A DNA stretch of 64,000 bases from positions 1,364,001-1,428,000 of the forward strand of contig NZ_CP033070.1 of NCBI RefSeq assembly GCF_003669035.1, in the 5' to 3' direction. A program made the translations under genes and the position numbers. The notes below the pieces were generated by a model, which was given only the letters and a program-made list of their open reading frames with translations, did not search any database and was not told the DNA's origin. Shown here piece by piece: positions 42,581 to 63,037 of this stretch (positions are counted from its first letter, which is position 1; every line of letters begins with the position of its first letter). This stretch comes from Chryseobacterium sp. 3008163 (GTDB taxonomy: Bacteria; Bacteroidota; Bacteroidia; Flavobacteriales; Weeksellaceae).

Positions 42581-45500
42581 TTAATCTTTCTTCAAAACAT
42601 CCTTAATTCCATCTAAACCTTCACTGAACTGCGCCAGCAAAGCCACAATCTGCGTCATTCTATCATTTTCTCCCAAACCTTTGATCATTTTATTTTTGAC
42701 AAACGTTTTCTTAATATCTTCCCAACGACTTTTTTCATCATCGGAAATCAGATTCATCAGCTCCTTCAATTTCAGCATATTCGATTCCGCTCCCGTAGTC
42801 AGCGTCTGAGATTCATTTTGGTAATGATTCAAAACAATCTGCGTAACTTCTTCAACTTTTAAAATTGGCTGAATCTGCGAAATCAGCTTATTCATGTTTC
42901 GATAAGAACCCTGAAGTTTGAAAGACGGTTCGTTTCTGTAATCATCAGACATTGCTGCGGAAGCAATGTACTGCTTGTTGACTTTTAAAACAACATCTCT
43001 GACTTTCAAAGTATTCTCTAAAACTTTTCTGAAATCTGAAATTTCATTTGAACTGAAGTTTCCTGCCAGATCTACATTCGGAGAATTGGTTTGAATACTA
43101 TTGTATAAACTGTACAGATTTTCCATTCCCTGATTAGTTAATCTTGTAAGATAATCGTTTGACATCAGCGCATTTTCAATTAAACTCAAATCAAACAGTT
43201 CCGTTTTGCTTCCTGAAATTTCACCTAAATTATAGGTATCGGAACGGTTCGCCAGCATATCCGGAATTTTAAATTTCTCACCACTTTCCGTGTATGGATT
43301 TCCAGCCATGACGAGACAGAAACGTTTTGATCTTAAATCATACGTTTTACTTTCACCATTATAAATTCCTTCAATTCTTCTTTGCCCATCGGCCAGAGAG
43401 ATGAATTTCTGCAAAAATTCAGGGTTGCAATGCTGTATGTCATCGAGATATAACATCACATTATCACCCATTTCTAAAGCTAAATTCAACTTTTCAAGTT
43501 CCTGTTTTGCGCCGGCATTTTTAGCTTCATTCGGATCTGTGGAAACAATATCATGACCGATTGACGGACCGTTGATTTTCATAAAAACCAATCCCATTCG
43601 GTCTGCCATGTATTCCATCAAGGTGGTTTTTCCATAACCCGGAGGCGAAACGAGCAACAACATCCCCATTTTGTCGGTGCGTTTGTCGTTTCCGATGGTT
43701 CCTAATTGTTTGGCCAAATTTGCTCCGATTAAAGGAAAATAAACATCACTGATCAATTTATTCCTTACAAACGAACTCAAAACCTGAGATTTGAACGTAT
43801 CGATTTTCAGACTTTTCTTTTTATCATTCACCCATTTTGCTTTCAACTCCCGCAACTGCTTGTATTTCAGAACAATCACTTCATTGAAATTGGATAAACG
43901 GGAATTGAATTCATAATAATTCAAATGATAATCAAGGTCTTTTTCTAATGATTTTAAACCTTTCAAAACTGCTTCATAAGTGACATACAGAATATTTTCA
44001 GCATTGAATTGTTGGGTCACAAAAAACACAGCACTTTCTTTTTTAATATCATCCTCAAAATTCAATTCTGAATTAAATAAGAATGCATTCAAAGCACTTT
44101 CCGCAATCGAAAAGCATGCTGAAGGATAATTTTTCAACGCATTCAGCTGATCAATGAACTCAAGGTTTTTTCCTTTTTCCTTTAAATTTTTTAAAAATGA
44201 ATCATACAGCAAAGCCGCCTTCTCAGAAACCACAAATGCTGATTTATTTTCTCTTTTCAGATAAATCGCAGCATTAAAATCATTGACCTCAGCAAAAAGA
44301 TGATTGTTTTGAGCAAAAGATTTTATTTCATCCGACAATTCTTTATTGAGATATTGAAAACCTTTATCGGTTACAAATGATTTCAAAATTAAATTTGCCG
44401 CTTCAAACTGTTTCTGATAATATTCTTTTCTTTCTTCATTCAAAAAATACCAGAATAACTGCGCCAACGCTCTTTCAGACGGTGTAAACTGCATCAGTCC
44501 CAATTCGTTGTGCATTTGCTGCAGTTTTGAAACAATCATCAACGCATCTTCGTCGTGAATTCCTTTCACCAAGCCTTCACCAAAGTGATCAGTCATAAAC
44601 TGCTGAATCGAATTTCGGTTTTGCTGTTCAGTATTGATATTTCTATTTTGTGAAAAAATATTCCATGCTAAATATTCAAAACGTTTTACAATTTGATTTT
44701 CAGAAATATATTCCTGATTCCAGACCTCTTTGTAATCTGCAATTGCTTCAAAATTCAGAGGTTCATAGAATCCGGTTCCTGTTAAATGATAATAATATTG
44801 AGCATTTCGAAGCACCAAAGTCATATCTAATTTCTGACGATTCACGGCAAATTTATAATCACCCAAAGCAATCAGATTATCTCCGTCCGCATAAATTTCT
44901 TTTTTATCCTTGAGCTTTCTGACCGCTTCCTGCTGAGAAGTTTTCAGCAAGGTATGAATTTCTTCAGCCTTGGCAGAATCTTCCATTTCCATCAACTGTC
45001 GGGAAATATCACGAACTTTTTCAACCATTAAATCAGTCGCAAAATAGCCGTTGATTTCGTTTTCAGCATCGAAAGATTCGGTTTTTGTTTTGACAGACTG
45101 TAAAATCCTTTTTGCAGAATCATACAAATTCTGCGTTCTTTTATTGCGGGATTCCGTAAGCTGAACTCTTTTGTTTTGAAAATGACCGTATACTTCTTCT
45201 CTTTTTTCGCCAATTTTTTGGATAAATTCGTCAAAATCAATGAATTTTGTTTCCATTTCTTCCAAATGAATAGAAAGCTTGGTCAGATATTCATCACATT
45301 TTTCCGGAGTTTGGGACAGTTCTAGAAAATTAATCACCGATTGATCAAACAAAGTCATCTGGGCCTGAAAATCAGCTGACAATTCTTTTCCGGAAATCTC
45401 TCTTTTCCTTTTTGATAATTCTAAACGCTCCTGATTTAACCTTGCAAAAATCACCGAAATATTCTCAATGATTTGCGTTGACTGCGAAGTATCTTCAATT

Positions 45501-47392
45501 TTCAAATTATTGACAATATCCACCAAAAGCTCCAATTGCCCAGACAAATTATTGATATCTTCTTCAATAGTTTTAGCATCAATCGCTTTCTGCAAATTGA
45601 TGATATTTTCAGAAATTGATTGCGCTCGGGTTTCGTAAGGCGACAGAGAATTTTCCTGAAGCAGGAAATTTACACAGGCATTGGAAAGCTCTCCAGATCT
45701 TGCAGACAGTGACTCATCTAAGGTGTCGAGAATTTTCGCATCGACATATTTTAAATCTCTTGCTCCGATAATTTCACCACGCAAAGCTCTAATCTGCGAA
45801 AGCATATCAATATATTCTGTCAATTGAGAATAATTGATTCTTTTAGTATCATCTAAAATTTTTCCGCAAGAAACTTTGATTTTTTCAACCGCTTCACCCG
45901 TGCTTTTTTTCTGCTCAATTACTTTTTCGTATTCATTAATGGCAGAATGAGCTATTTTCCGGATTTCTTTTAAAGGTTTATCTAAATTTTGAACCTCATC
46001 ATCACCCAGAAAATAATATGCATCTAAAATCGTGGTTGAAAGCTTGACAATATCATCATACAAACCGCTGTAAGAATCTTCCTTATTCAGTAAAGTAATC
46101 AGCTCCTGACTTTCTGCCATCACCCTCACAATATCTTTATTTCCAATTTTATAAAGAAGCGTATCCGATTTTTCTGTATTTGGCTGTAATTCTCTGAAAT
46201 ACGGAGTCTGCCAGATTTGAGCCAAGTGATGTTTCGTTGTTTCTACACTCTCTCTTAAATAAATAAGTTTCCCATCATTCAAAATAGAATAGCCACTGCA
46301 ACGAATCGGTGTTTCAATGGATTGCGTGATGATATTGTATGAAATTAGCTGATAATTATTCGTTTTATCGTCATAGAAAACATATATGAAGTTTTCACCG
46401 TTTGGTTCAGAGATCGTCTTCAGATAGTGAAGCCTATTCTGATCCTGAGAAATCACCTTTAAACCTCCCGTCTGCAAAGCATAACCATTCGAGAACAAAA
46501 CGCCCTGATTTTCCGGAAGTAAAACCGCTGAATGCTTCAAAGTATCAACACGAGAAACTATTTTTTCTTTATGATTGTAAATGAAATATCTTTCAGATTC
46601 CTGATAGGGTTTGATTTTAAATAAAACCAAGTTATCAAGGTCACAGAAGTGAATTTCAGCATCATCGAGATTCTGATCTTGATGAATGACATCTTCAGAA
46701 TAAATTCCTTTTCCGGTGTCGGTATTGTCTTCGATTTTAATGGTAATATCGCCGCCAATCGACTCCACAAAAACTTTATCAGCCAAAGAAACGTGCGGAA
46801 ATTTTCCGCTGCGCTGCATATCTCTTGTCGCTTTCGTCCATGTAAAACCATGTTGCGGAGGGTAAGTAACCTCTGAAGCACTTCTGGAATCAACATAAAC
46901 AAGCTGATCTTCTTTGATCAACCATTTGAAAGCCTTGATATCAGATGTACTTTCAGATAATTGGAAAACCATGTACAGATAGTTTTCGGTAAAATGAAAG
47001 CGTGCGAAAAAAGTATTCCTGTAATATTTATATAAATTTTTGAACTCTTCAATGAAAATTTCATCTTCAATCAAAGAAGCATCTTGAGGCTCAAAACGCT
47101 TGCTATTTATTTTATAAACCGAAAAAACATCGGTAATATTAATCTCTGTCTGTAAGCCCAAATGAGCATTTGAACCAAATATTAATGTGTTTTTTAACGA
47201 AAAAATATCTTTAGCAATACAATTATGTTCTGTAGAAATTCTTTCGTTGGCAATGAGAGAAAAATCTACGCCGCCGAAAATTTCTTTACGGTTTACGTTC
47301 AGCTTCTGAAGCCTTTGAATGAGGTCATTTTTCTGCTCATTCAGACGGCTCTGAATTATTTCGTATGTCCCTGAATTTAATTTTTCTGACAT
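42581..47392 (-). CDS. Very large AAA+ ATPase (DUF3686, 'DNA repair ATPase')
   Basis: A 1603-residue cytoplasmic protein. The N-terminal part (about 1-430) is beta-rich and matches the DUF3686 start (SLKNTLIFGSNAHLGLQTEI, YPPQHGFTWTKATRDMQRSGKFPH), the middle (about 430-830) is long coiled coil, and an AAA+ domain lies near 1230-1480 with Walker A PPGYGKTTLMEYMADRMG and Walker B LYLDDIQHCNPEF. The family name suggests DNA repair but the activity is unproven. It follows the flotillin gene and is separated from it by 285 bases. This ATPase, flotillin and NfeD-like genes often appear near Ter and RNA-repair genes, so it may remodel a membrane-linked complex. Confidence 0.88.
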   Translation of the reverse strand: MSEKLNSGTYEIIQSRLNEQKNDLIQRLQKLNVNRKEIFGGVDFSLIANERISTEHNCIAKDIFSLKNTLIFGSNAHLGLQTEINITDVFSVYKINSKRFEPQDASLIEDEIFIEEFKNLYKYYRNTFFARFHFTENYLYMVFQLSESTSDIKAFKWLIKEDQLVYVDSRSASEVTYPPQHGFTWTKATRDMQRSGKFPHVSLADKVFVESIGGDITIKIEDNTDTGKGIYSEDVIHQDQNLDDAEIHFCDLDNLVLFKIKPYQESERYFIYNHKEKIVSRVDTLKHSAVLLPENQGVLFSNGYALQTGGLKVISQDQNRLHYLKTISEPNGENFIYVFYDDKTNNYQLISYNIITQSIETPIRCSGYSILNDGKLIYLRESVETTKHHLAQIWQTPYFRELQPNTEKSDTLLYKIGNKDIVRVMAESQELITLLNKEDSYSGLYDDIVKLSTTILDAYYFLGDDEVQNLDKPLKEIRKIAHSAINEYEKVIEQKKSTGEAVEKIKVSCGKILDDTKRINYSQLTEYIDMLSQIRALRGEIIGARDLKYVDAKILDTLDESLSARSGELSNACVNFLLQENSLSPYETRAQSISENIINLQKAIDAKTIEEDINNLSGQLELLVDIVNNLKIEDTSQSTQIIENISVIFARLNQERLELSKRKREISGKELSADFQAQMTLFDQSVINFLELSQTPEKCDEYLTKLSIHLEEMETKFIDFDEFIQKIGEKREEVYGHFQNKRVQLTESRNKRTQNLYDSAKRILQSVKTKTESFDAENEINGYFATDLMVEKVRDISRQLMEMEDSAKAEEIHTLLKTSQQEAVRKLKDKKEIYADGDNLIALGDYKFAVNRQKLDMTLVLRNAQYYYHLTGTGFYEPLNFEAIADYKEVWNQEYISENQIVKRFEYLAWNIFSQNRNINTEQQNRNSIQQFMTDHFGEGLVKGIHDEDALMIVSKLQQMHNELGLMQFTPSERALAQLFWYFLNEERKEYYQKQFEAANLILKSFVTDKGFQYLNKELSDEIKSFAQNNHLFAEVNDFNAAIYLKRENKSAFVVSEKAALLYDSFLKNLKEKGKNLEFIDQLNALKNYPSACFSIAESALNAFLFNSELNFEDDIKKESAVFFVTQQFNAENILYVTYEAVLKGLKSLEKDLDYHLNYYEFNSRLSNFNEVIVLKYKQLRELKAKWVNDKKKSLKIDTFKSQVLSSFVRNKLISDVYFPLIGANLAKQLGTIGNDKRTDKMGMLLLVSPPGYGKTTLMEYMADRMGLVFMKINGPSIGHDIVSTDPNEAKNAGAKQELEKLNLALEMGDNVMLYLDDIQHCNPEFLQKFISLADGQRRIEGIYNGESKTYDLRSKRFCLVMAGNPYTESGEKFKIPDMLANRSDTYNLGEISGSKTELFDLSLIENALMSNDYLTRLTNQGMENLYSLYNSIQTNSPNVDLAGNFSSNEISDFRKVLENTLKVRDVVLKVNKQYIASAAMSDDYRNEPSFKLQGSYRNMNKLISQIQPILKVEEVTQIVLNHYQNESQTLTTGAESNMLKLKELMNLISDDEKSRWEDIKKTFVKNKMIKGLGENDRMTQIVALLAQFSEGLDGIKDVLKKD

Positions 47393-50793: not shown

Positions 50794-51456
50794 ATGAGTT
50801 TTTTTGGAGCTAATATTAAGACAGTGAGACATGCAAAAGGTTTAAGCCAGCAAGCATTCGCAGATTTATTTGATTTAAACAGAGGCGTGATCGGTGCTTA
50901 TGAAGAAGGGCGCTCCGAACCTAAAATCGCAACATTACTCACTGTAGTTCATTACTTTAATCTCGATTTGGATCAATTCCTAACTGTTCCATTAACGATT
51001 GATGATCTCAACAAGCCCGAAAATTTCGAAAAGTTTCAATTGTCATTTAATTCAGATTTACCGTATAAGGAAAACAATATTGAAAATAACCATCAATATA
51101 ATTCACTGCAAAAAGCATTAGCAAATATCGATTTAATCTATGAATTCACAGAAAATACATCGGTTTTGTCAAATTACAAAATTGGTGACTTTTTGTTTTT
51201 AATGAAGTCAAATATGATGGAAGAAAATCCTGAAACTTTATTATATGTTGAAAAAGGAAATCTGCAGTATCTAAGTTCAGCTTCAGAGCAAAACCAATCT
51301 GAAAAAGAGGTGTACAAAATCGCAGGCTATTTATCTTCTGAGCAAAAAAATATCCTATCCGAAATTTTGGAAAGGATAGCAATTTTAGAAAAAAATAAAG
51401 GTAAAATCAAGAAAAGAAAGCGGGGCATTGTCTTTAGCCGGAGTCGAACCGGATAA
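50794..51456 (+). CDS. XRE family transcriptional regulator
   Basis: About 220 residues from the ATG at 50794 (MSFFGANIKTVRHAKG); the upstream TTG lies in the promoter. An HTH_3 domain fills residues 5-60 (LSQQAFADLFDLNRGVIGAYEEGRSEPK). The middle is of unknown fold, and the C-terminal end is basic (KGKIKKRKRG). The last 60 bases, including the RSRTG end and stop, overlap on the other strand with Y RNA 1 at 51395-51530, so the gene and RNA array are convergent and overlap. It may regulate itself or the island; not shown. Confidence 0.85.
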   Translation: MSFFGANIKTVRHAKGLSQQAFADLFDLNRGVIGAYEEGRSEPKIATLLTVVHYFNLDLDQFLTVPLTIDDLNKPENFEKFQLSFNSDLPYKENNIENNHQYNSLQKALANIDLIYEFTENTSVLSNYKIGDFLFLMKSNMMEENPETLLYVEKGNLQYLSSASEQNQSEKEVYKIAGYLSSEQKNILSEILERIAILEKNKGKIKKRKRGIVFSRSRTG

Positions 51457-51530
51457 TCTTGCAGATATTATCTACTTCACTATTCCTCCCCAATCTGGTG
51501 ACGAAGTACCTTTTCTCTACGACACTTTAT
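51395..51530 (-). ncRNA. Y-like RNA 1 (last of array)
   Basis: Terminal helix AUAAAG (51530-51525) / CUUUAU (51400-51395), then unpaired U, G-C and U-A pairs (GU...AC), unpaired C, the same plan as the others. The inner GUACUUCG is present. The inner part includes CCGG-UUCGACU-CCGG (T-arm-like) and a hairpin GAUAAU/AUUAUC with a nine-base loop. GGGG/CCCC could close a normal-order tRNA-like domain. A T7 run follows the final helix and probably terminates the array. The 3' part is antisense to the end of the XRE gene. Confidence 0.65.
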
Positions 51531-51535
51531 ATATT

Positions 51536-51686
51536 AAAACAAGGCAACAGGCAAAAAGAGTAATCGTGCTCTAACCATCTGAGCTACTCTCCCAATATAC
51601 ATTGTGTTTTTTGTGGAAGAGACGGGACTTGAACCCGCGACCCCGTCGTCCTAAGCGAAGTAACACTATTCTACGGCACTTGTTTT
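51536..51686 (-). ncRNA. Y-like RNA 2 with permuted tRNA-like domain
   Basis: Terminal helix AAAACAAG / CUUGUUUU, 8 bp, then the conserved element with GC paired to GC (a covariant C-G pair where others have U-A). Within it, in order: GUAG...UUACUUCG, T arm GCGGG-UUCAAGU-CCCGU, acceptor 3' strand CUCUUCC, a 21-base loop, acceptor 5' strand GGGAGAG (7 bp with one G-U), D arm UAGCUCAGAUGGUUAGAGCA. That is a tRNA with the halves in reversed order and no anticodon arm, as in YrlA-type Y RNAs. It is the most tRNA-like member. Confidence 0.85.
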
Positions 51687-51702
51687 TATTTTATTAATTA
51701 AA

Positions 51703-51809
51703 AAAGAGGCAAAAGGCAAGAAAACCACGAATAAGTTTTAACACTTATTTTCTGGATTTGAACCAATATCATAAGATTTACCGAAGTAAGTTTCTTTACG
51801 GCACTCTTT
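51703..51809 (-). ncRNA. Y-like RNA 3
   Basis: Terminal helix AAAGAG / CUCUUU with UGCC matched by UGCC on the 3' side (C-G form of the covarying pair). T arm UUGG-UUCAAAU-CCAG is present, followed by an AAUAAG/CUUAUU acceptor-like hairpin. No D arm is visible, so the tRNA-like domain is reduced. T6 after the final helix. Confidence 0.75.
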
Positions 51810-51825
51810 ATTTAAACTGAATTAA

Positions 51826-51927
51826 AAAGAGGTAACTCATTGAAAGACTTCCCAATCTTTTTCAAGATCGTTTGGACTCGAACCAAAATTATACCAAGAA
51901 GTAAGTCTTTTCTACGACACTCTTTAT
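51826..51927 (-). ncRNA. Y-like RNA 4
   Basis: Terminal helix AAAGAG / CUCUUU with UGUC matched by UACC (U-A form). T arm UUUGG-UUCGAGU-CCAAA (5 bp) and acceptor-like hairpin CGAUCUU-GAAA-AAGAUUG (7 bp). The D arm is missing; instead an inner helix GAAAAGACUU / AAGUCUUUC extends the stem. It begins 5 bases after Y RNA 5 ends. Confidence 0.78.
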
Positions 51928-51931
51928 TGTT

Positions 51932-52122
51932 AAATCAAGGTAAAAAATTATAGAATCTTCTGTGCATTTGCTCTACCCGCTGAGCTACTTTTCCTTTTGG
52001 GAAAAGGCAGGATTGTTCATAAATATTTTATTGTTTTTTATGAATTCACGAATACTTCGTATTTTGAACCTGCGTCCCAATGATTAATAACCGAAGTATG
52101 ATTCTAAAACGACACTTGATAT
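51932..52122 (-). ncRNA. Y-like RNA 5 with insertion in the T loop
   Basis: Terminal helix AUCAAG / CUUGAU with UGUC matched by UACC. The T stem GCAGG/CCUGC encloses about 45 extra bases, which themselves form a hairpin UUCAUAAA/UUUAUGAA. The acceptor hairpin CUUUUCC-CAAAA-GGAAAAG (7 bp) and D arm UAGCUCAGCGGGUAGAGCA are intact, so the insertion is recent or tolerated. Confidence 0.75.
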
Positions 52123-52128
52123 TATTTT

Positions 52129-52322
52129 AAAAATTACAAGGCAAATATTGATAAAAGCTGTCTTAAAACTTGTCTAGCCACTCGACCACACCTTTCGGCG
52201 AAAGGATTGACTCTGTCGAATCTTCGATTTCGAACCTTTGTAAAAAATCGAGTAATTAATAAAAAGAGTTTTTAGTTCAATGAAAGTCGAAGGAACTCTT
52301 TTTTACGACATCGATTATTTTT
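52129..52322 (-). ncRNA. Y-like RNA 6 with insertion in the T loop
   Basis: The conserved UGUCGUAAAAAAG...UUCCUUCGAC element is present, with GCC on the 3' side (U-G in place of U-A). The terminal helix is weaker than in the others. T stem AAAGG/CCUUU encloses about 22 extra bases that match a sequence at 49826-49850 (TCGAATCTTCGATTTC). A short acceptor CGCC-GAAA-GGUG and a tRNA-Ser/Leu-like D arm GGUCGAGUGGCUAGAC follow. Confidence 0.65.
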
Positions 52323-52458
52323 AAAGTAAGGTAAAAATCAAATAAAGACTTCATCGCGACGTGATAACCAATTACACCATCCTGAATTTTCAGGAGCAGG
52401 ATTCGAACCTGCAAAACCGCAATTTAACGAAGAAATTCTGTTTTACGACACTTACTTT
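52323..52458 (-). ncRNA. Y-like RNA 7, clearest permuted tRNA-like domain
   Basis: Terminal helix AAAGUAAG (52458-52451) / CUUACUUU (52330-52323), 8 perfect bp, then UGUC with UACC, then GUAAAA/UUUUAC. The inner domain reads T arm GCAGG-UUCGAAU-CCUGC, acceptor strand UCCUGAA, two-base loop AA, acceptor strand UUCAGGA (7 perfect bp), D arm GGUGUAAUUGGUUAUCAC. So the tRNA-like part is circularly permuted and closed at its acceptor end. The 5' end overlaps the last codons of the small gene at 52452. Confidence 0.85.
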
Positions 52459-52678
52459 TTATTTTTCCATTGGGTTTTTCTGTATTTTTTCCAATTTCTT
52501 TGAAACTTAATTTCTTTTGAATTAATCGTTTCATAGCCATGTGGAAAACACCGAGAACATCCCATTTCATCTCCATATAAAATTCTGGAAATTTGTACGT
52601 TTGAAATTTTCTTCGGGAAATCGATTAATCTATATTCGTTGATTCCAAAAGATTTCTTTAATGCTTTAAATTTTTCAT
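52452..52678 (-). CDS. Small basic protein with CxxC (apparent frameshift)
   Basis: From ATG 52678 the frame is broken after three codons by a five-base T run (52671-52675). With one base more it encodes about 75 residues: MKKFKALKKSFGINEYRL, then ISRILYGDEMGCSRCFPHGYE and a basic tail QRNWKKYRKTQWKNKK. C-S-R-C plus a histidine could bind metal, and the tail could bind RNA. I do not know the family. It lies between promoter element P3 and the Y RNA array and would be carried on the same transcript. Confidence 0.55.
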
Positions 52679-52697
52679 TAGTATTGAGTATTTAACC

Positions 52698-52739
52698 TCA
52701 ATACAGTGCTCCTTTAAGAAATTGTTTATAATATTTCAT
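52698..52739 (-). CDS. Possible 13-residue leader peptide
   Basis: ATG at 52739, MKYYKQFLKGALY then TGA. Its upstream leader shares ACAAAAAACA and TAACCATGAAAT with the leader of the Ro60 gene at 55388. A hairpin GTATTGAG/CTCAATAC lies between it and the next start at 52678. It could be a translated leader controlling the small gene or a relic; I have no proof of translation. Confidence 0.3.
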   Translation of the reverse strand: MKYYKQFLKGALY

Positions 52740-52759
52740 GGTTATTGTTTTTTGTTGTA

Positions 52760-52796
52760 GCAAAATTATTGCTTTAGTACGCATTCTTTTTACGCA
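52760..52796 (-). promoter_or_regulatory. Island promoter element P3
   Basis: On the minus strand TGCGTA, 7 bases, TGCGTA, 13 bases, TTTGC, with TAATTTTG as a full -7 match. The same layout occurs at 55446, 58509 and 60061. It should drive the small gene and Y RNAs 7 to 1. Confidence 0.75.
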
Positions 52797-52813
52797 GTTA
52801 AAATTTAAATTAA

Positions 52814-52902
52814 AAAACCAAGTAACAAGTTATAAGAGTTTTTTGAATGTTGTTCAAATTTTAAGTTTGACGATGGAACTCTTATTTTACGACATTGGTT
52901 AG
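52814..52902 (-). ncRNA. Y-like RNA 8, no tRNA-like domain
   Basis: Terminal helix AACCAA (52900-52895) / UUGGUU (52821-52816), then U, G-C and U-A pairs, unpaired C, and GUAA/UUAC, followed by a 9-bp inner helix AUAAGAGUU / AACUCUUAU. The motif CGUAAAAU...CCAUCG is a variant of the array consensus. The loop shows no T or D arm. Confidence 0.75.
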
Positions 52903-52904
52903 TT

Positions 52905-52980
52905 TAAACCGAGCGATATAGCGAAAAGACTCTATATCAATTGGAAGTCGAAGGATTTCTTTTCTTACGGCATCGGTTAT
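52905..52980 (-). ncRNA. Y-like RNA 9, short form
   Basis: Terminal helix AACCGA (52978-52973) / UCGGUU (52912-52907) with UGCC matched by GC (C-G form). It has GUAAG...UCCUUCGAC, and a hairpin GAUAUAG/CUAUAUC replaces the tRNA-like domain. It ends 3 bases before Y RNA 8. Confidence 0.7.
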
Positions 52981-53702: not shown

Positions 53703-53734
53703 ATTTACTATTATTAATTATTACATTTTATTCC

Positions 53735-53828
53735 TAGCCCCGATTGAAACGACATCCTTTTTCTGAAATGGCTTTAAAAAAAAGCGTTGGCGAAAAAGAT
53801 ATAGTGGAAAGCGGGAAATAGCTCCTAA
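53735..53828. repeat. Dispersed intergenic repeat, family 2 (longest copy)
   Basis: AGCCCCGATTGAAACGACATC, a middle with AAAAAAAAGCG, then AGTGGAAAGCGGGAAATAGC and TCCTAA. Related segments lie at 11701, 24281 and 60005. Confidence 0.65.
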
Positions 53829-53870: not shown

Positions 53871-55388
53871 TTACAGCACTACTTTCTTGATCATTTCTAC
53901 CGCTGACTTTCGGTCTTCCAAAGCATTCAATACATCGAAAATTTTGTCGGACCAACCAGCGATAAGATATACATCATTTTTTCTGACATCCAACGGTGGT
54001 TTTCCGTAACCTGCCAAATCAAATATATACAATTTTGCGTTTGGATTGATCTTTTTGTATCGGCTCCATGAGTTTCCGAAAGCGTTTGTAAATCCACCGG
54101 TATCCCACATTTGGGTGTCGGTAAACAACATGATTTTGTCAACAAGTTCTCGCTTGTTGATCAAGTCTTCAAGCACCAGATGACCGTTTGTGGCGTAACC
54201 CACTTCACCTTCCCGCTTGTAAAATGCATCTACATTTCTCAGGATACCGTTTTTAGGCATCGGAACTCTTTTCCAACAGCCACCAAACATACCTGAAATC
54301 ACATTTTTGCACTGTGACTGCAACATCATCGACATCAACAGACCGATATCATACAACAAAACCTTAGATTTCGGAGAAACCGGCTGTTGCATCGAACCCG
54401 AAACGTCTGCCGCAATCACCACCGAAGTATCGAAACCAAAACCTTTGATGTTCTTTGCACTCACCATCACGGCATCTTCCAATGCTTCTAAGATTGATGA
54501 CAAGTAAGGTGAATCGATCGTTTTCAATTCTCTATACGCCGCCAAAAATCTGAATGGCAATTGCTTAGAATTTCTCACCGCTCTTTCATCCGACAAATAG
54601 TTGCACACTTTGTACATCGCATCTGAAGAAACTTTGGCTTCTAAGATGTTTCGCAAGTTTCTCAACGTTGCCATATAACCAAGTTTGTTGCTGAAAATCA
54701 ATTCTTCCCATTTGTTTTTGAAAGCTGATTTTCTTTCTGCTTCATCCGCAAATTTTGTCTGACCCAAAACCGAAAGTTCAACTTCCCAAGTGTATGGAGT
54801 TTCCAACGCATCGTTGACTATTTTATTGAAAATTGCCTGTTGATTTTCGTCTTTTGCTTTCGGGTGAACCAAAAACAAAGCGTCTTTTAAAGTAACTTCC
54901 GCTTTTCTGTTGTATTTTGCGAATTGGTATTCATCAAATTTATTGAAAGATTTCACCAAACCTTTTTGAATTTGTTTTGAAAGTTTGTTCAGCTTTTTTG
55001 TTTCTGTTCTTTCGTTGGCTAATTGGTAATATGCCAACAATTCCGTGATTTCGTCTGCTCTTTGAATCACTCCGTCAACGGTTTTGCTTACCAAGTCTGT
55101 ACCTGAAGTTTGTTTTGCCAATTCGGTCGTCAAAACCAACGGAATCGAACGCAAATACATATCTTTTCTTGCATACACCGACAATTTTGCAACGAACTCA
55201 GGATCATTCTTTGTAATCAAAGATTGAATTCTCGTCAATCTGTCATTTCCTTTTTCATAGGTCGTGTTTGATAATCCTGTTGTAACAACAGCACTATATA
55301 GTTCTTCTGCAGGTGTCATTGTATAAGCTTTTGCACCTTCGTAGTTGGTCATTACTTTATTTTCTTTTCTCAAAAAATTAAATTTCAT
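53871..55388 (-). CDS. rsr: Ro60/Rsr homologue (TROVE and vWA domains)
   Basis: A 505-residue protein. A TROVE HEAT-like ring fills about 30-310 (GNDRLTRIQSLITKNDPEFV, YARKDMYLRSIPLVL, RNLRNILEAKVS), and a vWA domain follows with the MIDAS motif ADVSGSMQQ near residue 330, a threonine and the FTDTQMWDTG aspartate. Ro60 proteins bind Y RNAs on the outer ring surface and misfolded RNA ends in the central hole, and in bacteria they partner with exonucleases. Promoter element P1 lies 58 bases upstream. Nine Y-like RNAs follow on the same strand, which fits this function well. Confidence 0.95.
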   Translation of the reverse strand: MKFNFLRKENKVMTNYEGAKAYTMTPAEELYSAVVTTGLSNTTYEKGNDRLTRIQSLITKNDPEFVAKLSVYARKDMYLRSIPLVLTTELAKQTSGTDLVSKTVDGVIQRADEITELLAYYQLANERTETKKLNKLSKQIQKGLVKSFNKFDEYQFAKYNRKAEVTLKDALFLVHPKAKDENQQAIFNKIVNDALETPYTWEVELSVLGQTKFADEAERKSAFKNKWEELIFSNKLGYMATLRNLRNILEAKVSSDAMYKVCNYLSDERAVRNSKQLPFRFLAAYRELKTIDSPYLSSILEALEDAVMVSAKNIKGFGFDTSVVIAADVSGSMQQPVSPKSKVLLYDIGLLMSMMLQSQCKNVISGMFGGCWKRVPMPKNGILRNVDAFYKREGEVGYATNGHLVLEDLINKRELVDKIMLFTDTQMWDTGGFTNAFGNSWSRYKKINPNAKLYIFDLAGYGKPPLDVRKNDVYLIAGWSDKIFDVLNALEDRKSAVEMIKKVVL

Positions 55389-55445: not shown

Positions 55446-55482
55446 GCAAAGCAAGCATGATATTGCGCAGTGTTTTTGCGTA
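55446..55482 (-). promoter_or_regulatory. Island promoter element P1 (Ro60 gene)
   Basis: Minus strand TACGCA, 7 bases, TGCGCA, 13 bases, TTTGC. The 24 bases from TACGCA on are almost the same as in P2 at 58509. The -7 box TTGCTTTG has one mismatch to TAnnTTTG, so an activator may be needed. Confidence 0.75.
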
Positions 55483-56359: not shown

Positions 56360-56552
56360 GTAACCTTGATGAGATTCGAACTCACATTCCCTATTGGCAT
56401 TGCGGCTGTAAATACGCTTCCCTACTTCTCCTAAGATTTTCGGTGCTTCTGTAAACTCTACCCATTAGTCCGCACAGGTCTAACCGGAATATCCGCAAAC
56501 TCTACGGTAAGCAATATTTTGCCGTAGGCTTTTCCTTTTAAGCTACAAGGTT
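56360..56552 (-). ncRNA. tRNA-like RNA with large structured variable region
   Basis: In normal order: acceptor strand AACCUUG (56552-56546), UA, D arm GCUU-AAAAGGAA-AAGC, an anticodon-arm-like hairpin CUACGG/CCGUAG with a 14-base loop, about 110 bases closed by UUGCGG/CCGCAA, then T arm GUGAG-UUCGAAU-CUCAU and acceptor strand CAAGGUU (56368-56362) followed by A. All arms pair well, so this is not a random match. It is too short for tmRNA and has no tag frame. It follows the slipin gene by about 55 bases and may be on its transcript. A GGCTTC/GAAGCC hairpin at 56565-56583 lies between. Confidence 0.7.
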
Positions 56553-56609
56553 GTTTGTAAAGCAGGCTTCTTTTACAGAAGCCCACTTCTATAGTAATGA
56601 TTATTAGTT

Positions 56610-57985: not shown

Positions 57986-58142
57986 TTCTTAGAAAACTCA
58001 GTCCAATTATTGACTATTCATCACCTGAATTTTATTTTCAGAAAAAATCTTTTCTTACAAGCTTTTTCAAAATGTTGATTCAACAACTGAAAAAAACTCA
58101 AATTTTCCCATGGTGAATATTTTTAACGAGATATTCCAACTC

Positions 58143-58500
58143 TAATAAAAAATAGATTTTGAGCCTATTTTCAACCTACATTAATAGTGTAGTGCTCTAA
58201 CCAACTGAGCTACCTCATTCGAAGTGAGGGAGGGAGTCGAACCCTCGCATCCAAAAAAGCTATTACTCTAACCGAACTGAGTTATATTCCCTTACGGAAA
58301 TAGAAGGATTCGAACCTTCGACCCATAGCGCATGGTAGAAGTTTTTTGGAAAACTCCTGAAACCTTCAAGTCAAGTTGAACAGAAAAGAATAATGTTTCT
58401 CAACAAATTCTCCTGCAATGGTGCTATACAGAAACACTCAACAAGACTTGCTTGATATTTTGACTAAAATCTGTTTTCAAAATTTTAGTATTGTTTTGTT
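58143..58500 (-). ncRNA. Structured RNA with two permuted tRNA-like modules
   Basis: Expected to start about 8 bases after P2. The 5' part forms a long hairpin, CAAGUC-UU-GUUGA...UCAAC-UU-GACUUG with inner UGUUUCU/AGAAACA. Then module a (58259-58329): GCUAU, T arm GAAGG-UUCGAAU-CCUUC, acceptor UAUUUCC/GGGAAUA, D arm CUC-AGUUCGGUUA-GAG, AUAGC. Module b (58176-58248): T arm GAGGG-UUCGACU-CCCUC, acceptor CCUCA/UGAGG, D arm UAGCUCAGUUGGUUAGAGCA, then a perfect anticodon-type arm CUACA-CUAUUAA-UGUAG. A hairpin AAAAUAG/CUAUUUU with T run ends it at 58149. It lacks the array's UGYCGUAR motif. Confidence 0.65.
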
Positions 58501-58508
58501 TTGATGAT

Positions 58509-58545
58509 GCAAAGTAAGGGTGTTGTTGCGCAGTGTTTTTGCGTA
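58509..58545 (-). promoter_or_regulatory. Island promoter element P2
   Basis: Minus strand TACGCA, 7 bases, TGCGCA, 13 bases, TTTGC; CTACGCAAAAACACTGCGCA is identical to P1. It directs transcription into the structured RNA at 58143-58500. Confidence 0.75.
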
Positions 58546-60060: not shown

Positions 60061-60098
60061 GCAAAGATAAAACCACCAGTACGCATTCTATTTACGTA
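60061..60098 (-). promoter_or_regulatory. Island promoter element P4 (exonuclease pair)
   Basis: Minus strand TACGTA, 7 bases, TGCGTA, 14 bases, TTTGC; TATCTTTG fully matches the -7 consensus. Confidence 0.72.
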
Positions 60099-61991: not shown

Positions 61992-62034
61992 TTATAAAAA
62001 AGTTTCGATAATAAATTACCGAAACTATACTTTT
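61992..62034 (-). terminator. RNA ligase operon terminator
   Basis: AGTTTCG / CGAAACT with a 14-base loop, followed by a T run on the minus strand at the end of the ligase gene. Confidence 0.75.
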
Positions 62035-63037
62035 AGAGTCATCAACTCTTCTTTTACAACGTCAATGACTAAAGAATTCAACTTTTTGTTGATCCTTTTC
62101 TGTTCTTCTTTTTCTATGGTTGTGAAAACTTTCGGGAAATCTTTTTCAAAATCCTCCAAAATATCTTGTGAAAAAAGACCGATGGCTTTCCCAATCATTT
62201 TGGGTTCGAATTCACCAATTTTGCTCACAACATTATTCAACCTGTTTACAGTTGCATACTTTTGGATTTCATCCCAAATATTTTTGGCATTTTCACTGAA
62301 ATGAACTTCTTTTTGAGCAGGTCTGTCTTTTCTAACCATTTTAGATTTCTCAGTCCACTTTTCATTTTTATTTTTCAAAATGACTCTTGAGCCGTTTCCA
62401 AAATATTTGGTTTTCAAAGTTTTTACAATCGTTCCTTCACACATATTATTTTCAATTTCCGGTAATCCCAACCAAGCCGGAATTTTAGAATCGAAAACAT
62501 TCGGAAACTTCAAAGCTTCATCCAAAGTACCTTGAAATAAGATCTTTGCATAGAAAAATCCGGTTTCCTCGAAAATTTGGTTGACCAAACCTGTATCCAA
62601 ATAAGTAGTGCCGTTCAACTTAATGTCGAATCCATAAAATTCGTTGTGAGGTGCATATTCAACACCTTTTTGAACTTTTATCGCATTTTTTACAGGCTCT
62701 ACTTCTTTATGTTTGTAACCGCCACCGAATAATTCACCATAGATCACTACAGTTTCCAAATCCGGATGGATTGTTTTCACTTTTCGAACAAATCAATTAC
62801 GTTTTTTCTGTAACGCTCCAACATTTGATGGGCATTATAGAATTTCTCATCCTTCTCGACGAAAGCGGTTCTTTTTGCGATTTTAATCTCCTTTCCGTGG
62901 GTAAAGAAAGAGAAATTAGCACCGTGAACCTTTTCCTGTACAATGAAAACCTCATCCCCAAAACCCTGCAACCTGATCTGATCGATCACGCGGGCTTGGT
63001 AAGCATTTTCTATAGAGTTATATGTTTTGAAAATCAT
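62025..63037 (-). CDS. Rnl2-type RNA ligase (apparent frameshift)
   Basis: Two frames, 62777-63037 and 62025-62780, are the N- and C-terminal parts of one RNA ligase. One extra base in the T4 run at 62781-62784 joins them (DLFEKVKTIHPDLE) into 337 residues, close to T4 Rnl2 (334). Motif I is EKVHGANFS with nucleophile lysine 36, motif IIIa FYGFDIK, motif IV EGTIVKTL and motif V VILKNKNEKW. Rnl2 enzymes seal nicks in double-stranded RNA. It lies in an operon with a cyclic-phosphate processing receiver and an ATP-grasp protein. If the shift is real the nucleotidyltransferase domain is split into two proteins. Confidence 0.88.

Follow-up and report, generated by a model that had tools for sequence, protein, structure and literature searches.

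Arrays of predicted Y RNA-like genes beside a TROVE (Ro60-like) gene in Chryseobacterium and its relatives

What is the row of short, similarly built units that adjoins a TROVE (Ro60-like) gene in Chryseobacterium sp. 3008163, and what might a bacterium do with so many of them? Elsewhere Y RNA genes typically number one or two per locus, and work on bacterial Y RNAs is known from few species, each with a single gene or a pair. The stretch analysed here, called the window, comprises 64,000 nucleotides (contig NZ_CP033070.1, positions 1,364,001 to 1,428,000), and positions are those of the window unless another contig or locus is named. Between 51395 and 52978 its minus strand carries nine complete head-to-tail units and one truncated unit. 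That the nine are predicted Y RNA-like genes, as the initial annotation of this DNA had proposed, is supported by covariation, by whole-genome co-occurrence with TROVE, and by a permuted tRNA of YrlA type in two of the units. I consider it quite probable that the nine complete units and the truncated one are Y RNAs of one covarying architecture, which would serve as adaptors for the neighbouring TROVE protein in the sorting of damaged RNA.

The units and their terminal stems

Seven of the complete units lie at 51395-52458 and two at 52816-52978 (U1 to U9 denote the units of the window, L numbers the related TROVE loci, and G numbers genomes). The ends of every unit form a helix of 6-11 positions whose sequence differs from unit to unit, and the earlier claim that each has a helix of its own is confirmed in all nine. 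Read 5' to 3', a unit consists of a helix strand, UGYCG, an inner part, U-R-C, and the complementary strand (U9 has C-G-C). The unit ends pair into a stem beside an unpaired C and the units adjoin a Ro60/TROVE gene, two features by which membership among the Y RNAs is judged. The pair formed by Y and R had been said to covary, and it is indeed matched in 9/9 units, as U-A in U1, U4, U5, U6, U7 and U8 and as C-G in U2, U3 and U9 (for U3 and U4 the second-listed helix register was adopted). Unit 6 had been assigned a U-G pair, but its helix AAUCGA/UCGAUU closes at 52242 and its pair is therefore U-A.

On the minus strand throughout, the array runs from U9 (52907..52978, 72 nt, type 1), which has no tRNA-like module and closes with the helix AACCGA/UCGGUU and the elements UGCC...CGC, through U8 (52816..52900, 85 nt, type 1), U7 (52323..52458, 136 nt, type 3), U6 (52242..52320, 79 nt, type 1), U5 (51934..52120, 187 nt), U4 (51826..51925, 100 nt, type 2), U3 (51700..51812, 113 nt, type 2) and U2 (51533..51689, 157 nt, type 0) to U1 (51395..51530, 136 nt, type 4). 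The nine units first counted are all complete, but a truncated tenth had been overlooked, the 3' remnant of a type 8 unit at 52121..52241 whose 5' part is missing (the shared sequence was read by eye); the window holds this remnant alone, and the type is complete in L002, L011, L014, L015, L024 and L064. A spacing of 1-20 bases, also claimed for the whole row, fails between units 6 and 5, because the 121 bases that separate them are this remnant of another unit type. Nor does the second motif, GUAR...UUACUUCG, follow in every unit, since U5 has GUUUUAG, U8 CCAUCG, U9 UCCUUCG and U4 UUACUUCUU. The initial annotation had seen the units but missed both their tRNA-like modules and their setting in a predicted RNA-repair island.

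A TROVE-protein search of 84,980 species genomes gave 228 confirmed places. The analysis used the best 80 of them, made up of 68 from Chryseobacterium, Epilithonimonas and genera close to them plus 12 from Flavobacterium and a near relative. The closest loci belong to two Chryseobacterium species in which TROVE is 96% identical. Similar rows of units adjoin TROVE in 78 of these 80 loci. The unit signature matched 432 times on the TROVE strand and 14 times on the opposite strand, compared with 20 matches after one local base shuffle, and the matches lie mostly just downstream of TROVE. Units could be counted in 79 loci, namely 78 relatives and the window (L004 and L041, whose contigs end ~0.2 and 1.7 kb after TROVE, were excluded), and their number ranges from 2 to 12, with 2-4 in 13 loci, 5-8 in 56, and nine or more in 10. 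Nine units, which had been called exceptional, fall in the upper part of the usual range.

To model the shared stem, 31 short units were picked, of which two with T-arm-like inserts were excluded and 29 were aligned (U6, U8 and U9 from the window and 26 units from relatives); the covariance model trained on them is called R1. Scored on a structure drawn from these same sequences, and with the caveat that kinship alone can lift sequences above their shuffles where no structure exists, the alignment has 92.1% of its cells paired against 73.9% when shuffled, double changes in 12/16 pairs against 8.9 (a value reached by 1/500 shuffles), and a covariation score of 0.549 against 0.203 (reached by 0/500), which is at most 0.165 when the structure is slid along the sequences. 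The terminal helix is 99.1% paired, and the Y-R pair is C-G in 16 short units, U-A in 13, and broken in none. Covariation in homologues, a check that had been set for the earlier proposal, was found in a model of 29 short units.

The longer unit types were aligned by sequence, with ends chosen with a preference for a matching R. Among all 501 units the pair is C-G in 246 and U-A in 229, counts that are inflated because the choice of 3' ends favoured a matching R, and the counts for the long types share this inflation because they inherit the same ends: type 0 (60/144 units aligned) has 29 U-A, 27 C-G and 4 U-G; type 2 (60/63) has 46 C-G, 9 U-A and 5 U-G; type 3 (50/56) has 35 U-A, 14 C-G and 1 C-A; type 4 (42/45) has 37 U-A, 3 C-G, 1 U-G and 1 U-U; and type 5 is weaker, with 10/14 paired. 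Without the end preference, 607 sites, spurious ones included, gave 237 C-G, 222 U-A, 37 U-G, 29 C-A and 82 others. R1 matches U3 (35.3 bits) and U4 (47.6 bits), both outside its training set, with filters on and off, and it also finds units beside TROVE in other orders. In L175, from another family of the same class, the signature gives seven candidate units and R1 lists one.

Co-occurrence with TROVE, and points that weigh against the reading

The TROVE gene of the window (53871..55388, minus strand) encodes 505 aa with a match to PF05731 (E 3.5e-28) and to the TROVE chains 9l5y/9kop of the PDB (E 1.7e-27). Residues D328-V329-S330-G331-S332, which I take to be the DxSGS motif of the vWA domain, are invariant in 12/12 aligned TROVE proteins. 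A protein search gave 4838 matches, and the 120 listed among them are all close homologues. The R1 training units came from TROVE loci and the R1 searches covered whole genomes. Among 148 genomes of the genus, R1 was found in 100 and TROVE in 107, with all 100 falling within the 107, and R1 was found in 0/41 TROVE-negative genomes (Fisher 1.2e-29). Of 296 genomes sampled across the phylum, 24 have TROVE; R1 matched 7/24 of these and 0/272 of the rest. For both samples, the sets negative for TROVE or R1 are the total minus the positives listed, and the genome draws were judged to be the same across searches. By the precedent of vertebrate Ro60, whose binding site is described in a passage of PMC4726728 as including a 7-bp helix with a bulged C and a three-base bulge opposite, the terminal stem of each unit would hold the TROVE protein.

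Several results weigh against reading the units as Y RNAs of one architecture that serve TROVE. The TROVE protein scores only 22.9 bits against the NCBIfam Rsr equivalog, for which the cut-off is 900. In the genome search, 7/107 TROVE-positive genomes of the genus have no R1 match, although in one of those seven (G210) a unit was found when its locus (L188) was searched alone. R1 misses U1, U5 and U7, and it scores U2 at 36.5 bits with default filters but at 4.9 bits with filters off; these four units are therefore recognized by their ends, their modules and their conserved relatives. One of the five covariation measures, the number of further pair types, is not above shuffles (26 vs 23.9; 96/500). 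No unit reaches the gathering score of 69 of the Rfam YrlA model (RF02553): U2 has 32.1 bits, no other unit of the window is listed at E up to 10, the best score among relatives is 42.2 bits (L014), the cut-off is exceeded nowhere in six relatives' loci, and the model gives sub-cut-off matches in 7/14 control genomes. A sigma-70 scan found 14 sites where 12.3 are expected by chance, and a terminator scan found no terminator on the minus strand. Finally, the AAA, SPFH and HTH genes that adjoin the array were found in 4-7 of 72 loci within an 8 kb flank and are therefore probably not core; as core partners they were rejected.

tRNA-like and rRNA-like inner parts

The units differ most visibly in what their stems enclose. 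A strict test for a circularly permuted tRNA module required a T stem of at least 4/5 pairs with a TTCRA loop, an acceptor stem lacking no more than one of 6 or 7 pairs, and a paired D stem with GG in its loop. By this test 130/144 type 0 units and 24/56 type 3 units contain the module; the remaining types never do, and 0/501 shuffled units pass. In the window U2 and U7 carry it in full. U5 fails the test; read by eye, its module is permuted and tRNA-like, with ~50 nt inserted into the T loop, and by eye alone it and the type 8 remnant resemble the module. A T-arm-like hairpin is retained in U3 and U4, the module of U1 is of another, non-permuted kind that includes a T-arm hairpin, and U6, U8 and U9 have no inner module; the permuted module that marks YrlA is therefore lacking in U1, U3, U4, U6, U8 and U9.

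YrlA, a Y stem joined to a tRNA-like domain (as set out in the consulted part of PMC8394870), is among the closest known systems. Both have ends paired as a protein-binding stem, a permuted module of T arm, acceptor and D arm, and a place adjoining a Ro60-type gene. However, here there are 2-12 units per locus, some of them free of any module, and the scores fall under the Rfam cut-off.

Does each unit mimic one host tRNA? This was rejected for type 0, whose best tRNA matches are scattered over isoacceptors (n=142: Pro 49, Met 30, Gly 16, Lys 13, Ile and others). Type 3 leans to Tyr (26/45, with a T-arm match). A 20-nt match of type 0 to an rRNA operon was likewise rejected as rRNA, since it lies in the tRNA gene of that operon.

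True rRNA sequence is embedded in another type. Type 5 units (~224 nt) contain 23S rRNA sequence in 14/81 loci (80 relatives and the window), and the window itself has none. Against the rRNA operon of the window's genome they are identical over up to 33 nt, with a median exact run of 20, compared with runs of at most 14 in shuffled units and at most 16 in type 1 units; the type 5 unit at L014:11612 matches 23S rRNA at 33/33 nt. The embedded segment presumably comes from around H69-H71.

The repair island and the possible role of the array

The array sits in a predicted RNA-repair island. Upstream of TROVE on the same strand lie, by homology, a Band_7 gene, a pair of genes for exonucleases of the RNase_T family, one gene that is RNase Z-like (218.7 bits, under the NCBIfam cut-off of 315), and genes for an Rnl2-type RNA ligase, a cyclic-phosphate receiver and an R2K ATP-grasp protein. 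The ligase gene (62025..62780, minus strand; PF18043, E 1.4e-22) co-occurs with TROVE: at E below 1e-100 it was found in 93/107 TROVE-positive and 6/41 TROVE-negative genomes of the genus, with one weak match (G316, E 3.5e-30) left out. In the 90 genomes for which the places of both genes were compared, they share one contig in 85, always within 23 kb, and lie on different contigs in 5. An RNA ligase linked to a Ro60-type gene is one of the arrangements by which an RNA repair operon is recognized. Among ten proteins tried, PADLOC reported no defence system, only its generic DEDDh model.

Just beyond the end of the window, ~12 kb from the array, ARAGORN found 15 divergent tRNA genes (L091:999-3114, corresponding to contig positions 1428999-1431114). 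Between them they cover 14 anticodons, each also served by genes in other parts of the genome, with which the cluster's copies share 54-76% identity. Within the flank covered, tRNA clusters upstream of TROVE are visible in 14/80 loci. As a side observation on the cluster just past the window, a long variable arm is missing from its Leu copy and present in its Cys copy. Genes for a Ro60-type protein, for predicted enzymes of RNA repair and for a redundant set of tRNAs stand together in one locus.

How might these parts work together? On the adaptor reading, the terminal helix and unpaired C of each Y RNA would bind the neighbouring TROVE protein. Which partners or substrates then reach this one protein would likely depend on the inner part, be it absent, a circularly permuted tRNA or a T-arm hairpin, with the tRNA-like surface being read as tRNA by other proteins. 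Since the TROVE gene lies within the predicted repair island, the likely role would be the sorting of damaged tRNA and rRNA: a Ro60-like ring with interchangeable Y RNA adaptors may hand RNA to the exonucleases or ligases of the island, or hold RNA off. A bolder form of the same idea, which I offer tentatively and with considerable doubt, is a swappable library of Y RNAs that display either a tRNA elbow or a tRNA in permuted form, and in relatives also the H69-H71 segment of 23S rRNA. These would let one ring sense or absorb attacks on each such RNA, pass the damaged originals to the ligases, and have the spare tRNA set replace losses.

Known systems offer partial parallels. The Rsr/Y RNA/PNPase complex of Deinococcus radiodurans (RYPER), in the portions of PMC8394870 and PMC4726728 that treat it, likewise has one TROVE protein with a Y RNA as the likely tether to a nuclease, but here there are many different Y RNAs, the island carries RNase_T-family exonuclease genes, and the TROVE protein falls far under the NCBIfam Rsr cut-off. 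The rsr-yrlBA-rtcBA RNA repair operon of Salmonella, as outlined in part of PMC7790460, also ties Ro60 and Y RNAs to RNA-repair genes; however, here the genes are an Rnl2-type ligase and an R2K ATP-grasp, and neither RtcB nor RtcA was among the 17 proteins given to Pfam, no dedicated search for either having been made. A Y RNA beside a Ro60 ortholog, tRNA mimicry of YrlA type and a link to RNA repair are all known already. TROVE/Band-7 repair systems with ligases, Y RNAs and a tRNA-like RNA, as here, were reportedly described by Burroughs and Aravind in 2016; to my knowledge, the abstract of that work does not mention the array size, the second tRNA set or an rRNA-like unit. The open-licence literature holds no report of bacterial Y RNA arrays that I could find, which is weak evidence as it omits the key papers of the field; as far as that literature shows, mixed-module arrays of this size, the rRNA-like unit in relatives, and a shared element together with a second tRNA set are new. 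The natural series of 2-12 units across the genus and its relatives offers material for addressing what bacterial Y RNAs do, and its varied units, with and without tRNA-like modules and some with a 23S segment, would allow the functions of stem and module to be separated genetically.

The tRNA-like units might instead work mainly as bait for, or competitive inhibitors of, RNases directed at tRNA (in relatives also at rRNA), with TROVE just stabilising them. Such decoys have a precedent, as a section of PMC7790460 relates the proposal that the tRNA-like domain of YrlA is a competitive inhibitor of an anticodon nuclease, and both the embedded 23S stretches of type 5 units and the nearby divergent tRNA set would suit them. 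Yet an anticodon loop, the usual target, is missing from the permuted modules themselves, U6, U8 and U9 carry no mimic at all, and type 0 units follow no consistent isoacceptor although type 3 leans to Tyr; I consider decoys an unlikely explanation.

The signals around the array bear on a second alternative. The element TRCGYAAAWANANTGCGYA (55464..55482, minus strand, upstream of TROVE) has five copies in the 4.56 Mb genome, always on the same strand and always in or near the island: within the array at 52778-52796, at 55464-55482, 58527-58545 and 60080-60098, and 13.5 kb past the end of the window. It consists of two palindromic hexamers 13 bp apart. The pattern was written from the five sites that it then matched, so that it shows absence elsewhere and not an independent prediction. 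In relatives a looser form, whose half-site is palindromic, gave 199 forward and 103 reverse matches; 99 looser sites lie on the array side. The copy in the spacer at 52460-52815 is a candidate regulatory element, and the array may be transcribed from this kind of element and processed to single RNAs. Alternatively, the array might be no set of separate Y RNAs but a structured 3' region of the TROVE mRNA, acting in autoregulation or mRNA stability, as its place downstream of TROVE on the same strand and the lack of a minus-strand terminator between the two in the scan would allow. However, the element copy inside the array and the looser array-side copies in relatives speak against it, and separately closed helices of differing sequence with tRNA-like inserts would be unnecessary in such a region, which makes this explanation improbable. 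A decaying tRNA cluster, or a repeat family that has no role as RNA, can be dismissed as barely credible, for although a tRNA cluster lies close by, one unit is truncated and one has an insert, covariation is strong with compensatory changes in the stems, the rows are conserved in nearly all related loci, and co-occurrence with TROVE is strict.

The conserved spacer (52460..52815, minus strand) holds a small open reading frame beside the element and has blastn matches, whole or partial, in 60/80 loci. In relatives the frame encodes ~72 aa with CxxCFPHG; a gene for this small protein lies within the array in 35/72 loci, and the protein has no Pfam match. In the window the frame is displaced near its start compared with relatives.

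A few further features lie close to the array. A Flavo-1 RNA (RF01705, 63.2 bits; 53732-53822, plus strand) follows closely on the 3' end of TROVE and is encoded by the other strand. A DUF3686 AAA ATPase of 1603 aa (42581-47392, minus strand; PF12458, E 4.2e-171) is encoded near the array; among relatives it was seen in 4/72 loci, where it borders on the limit of the flank covered. Upstream of the Band_7 gene, a permuted tRNA-like RNA region (58100..58440, minus strand) passes the strict module test and has matches in 15/80 loci; within it, 58143-58219 scores 37.2 bits with the Rfam tRNA model. Finally, beside the Band_7 gene at 56370-56560 (minus strand) there is what appears by eye to be a tRNA-like RNA, found in 7/80 loci, with a 7-bp acceptor, a T arm, and a very long region between the D and T arms.

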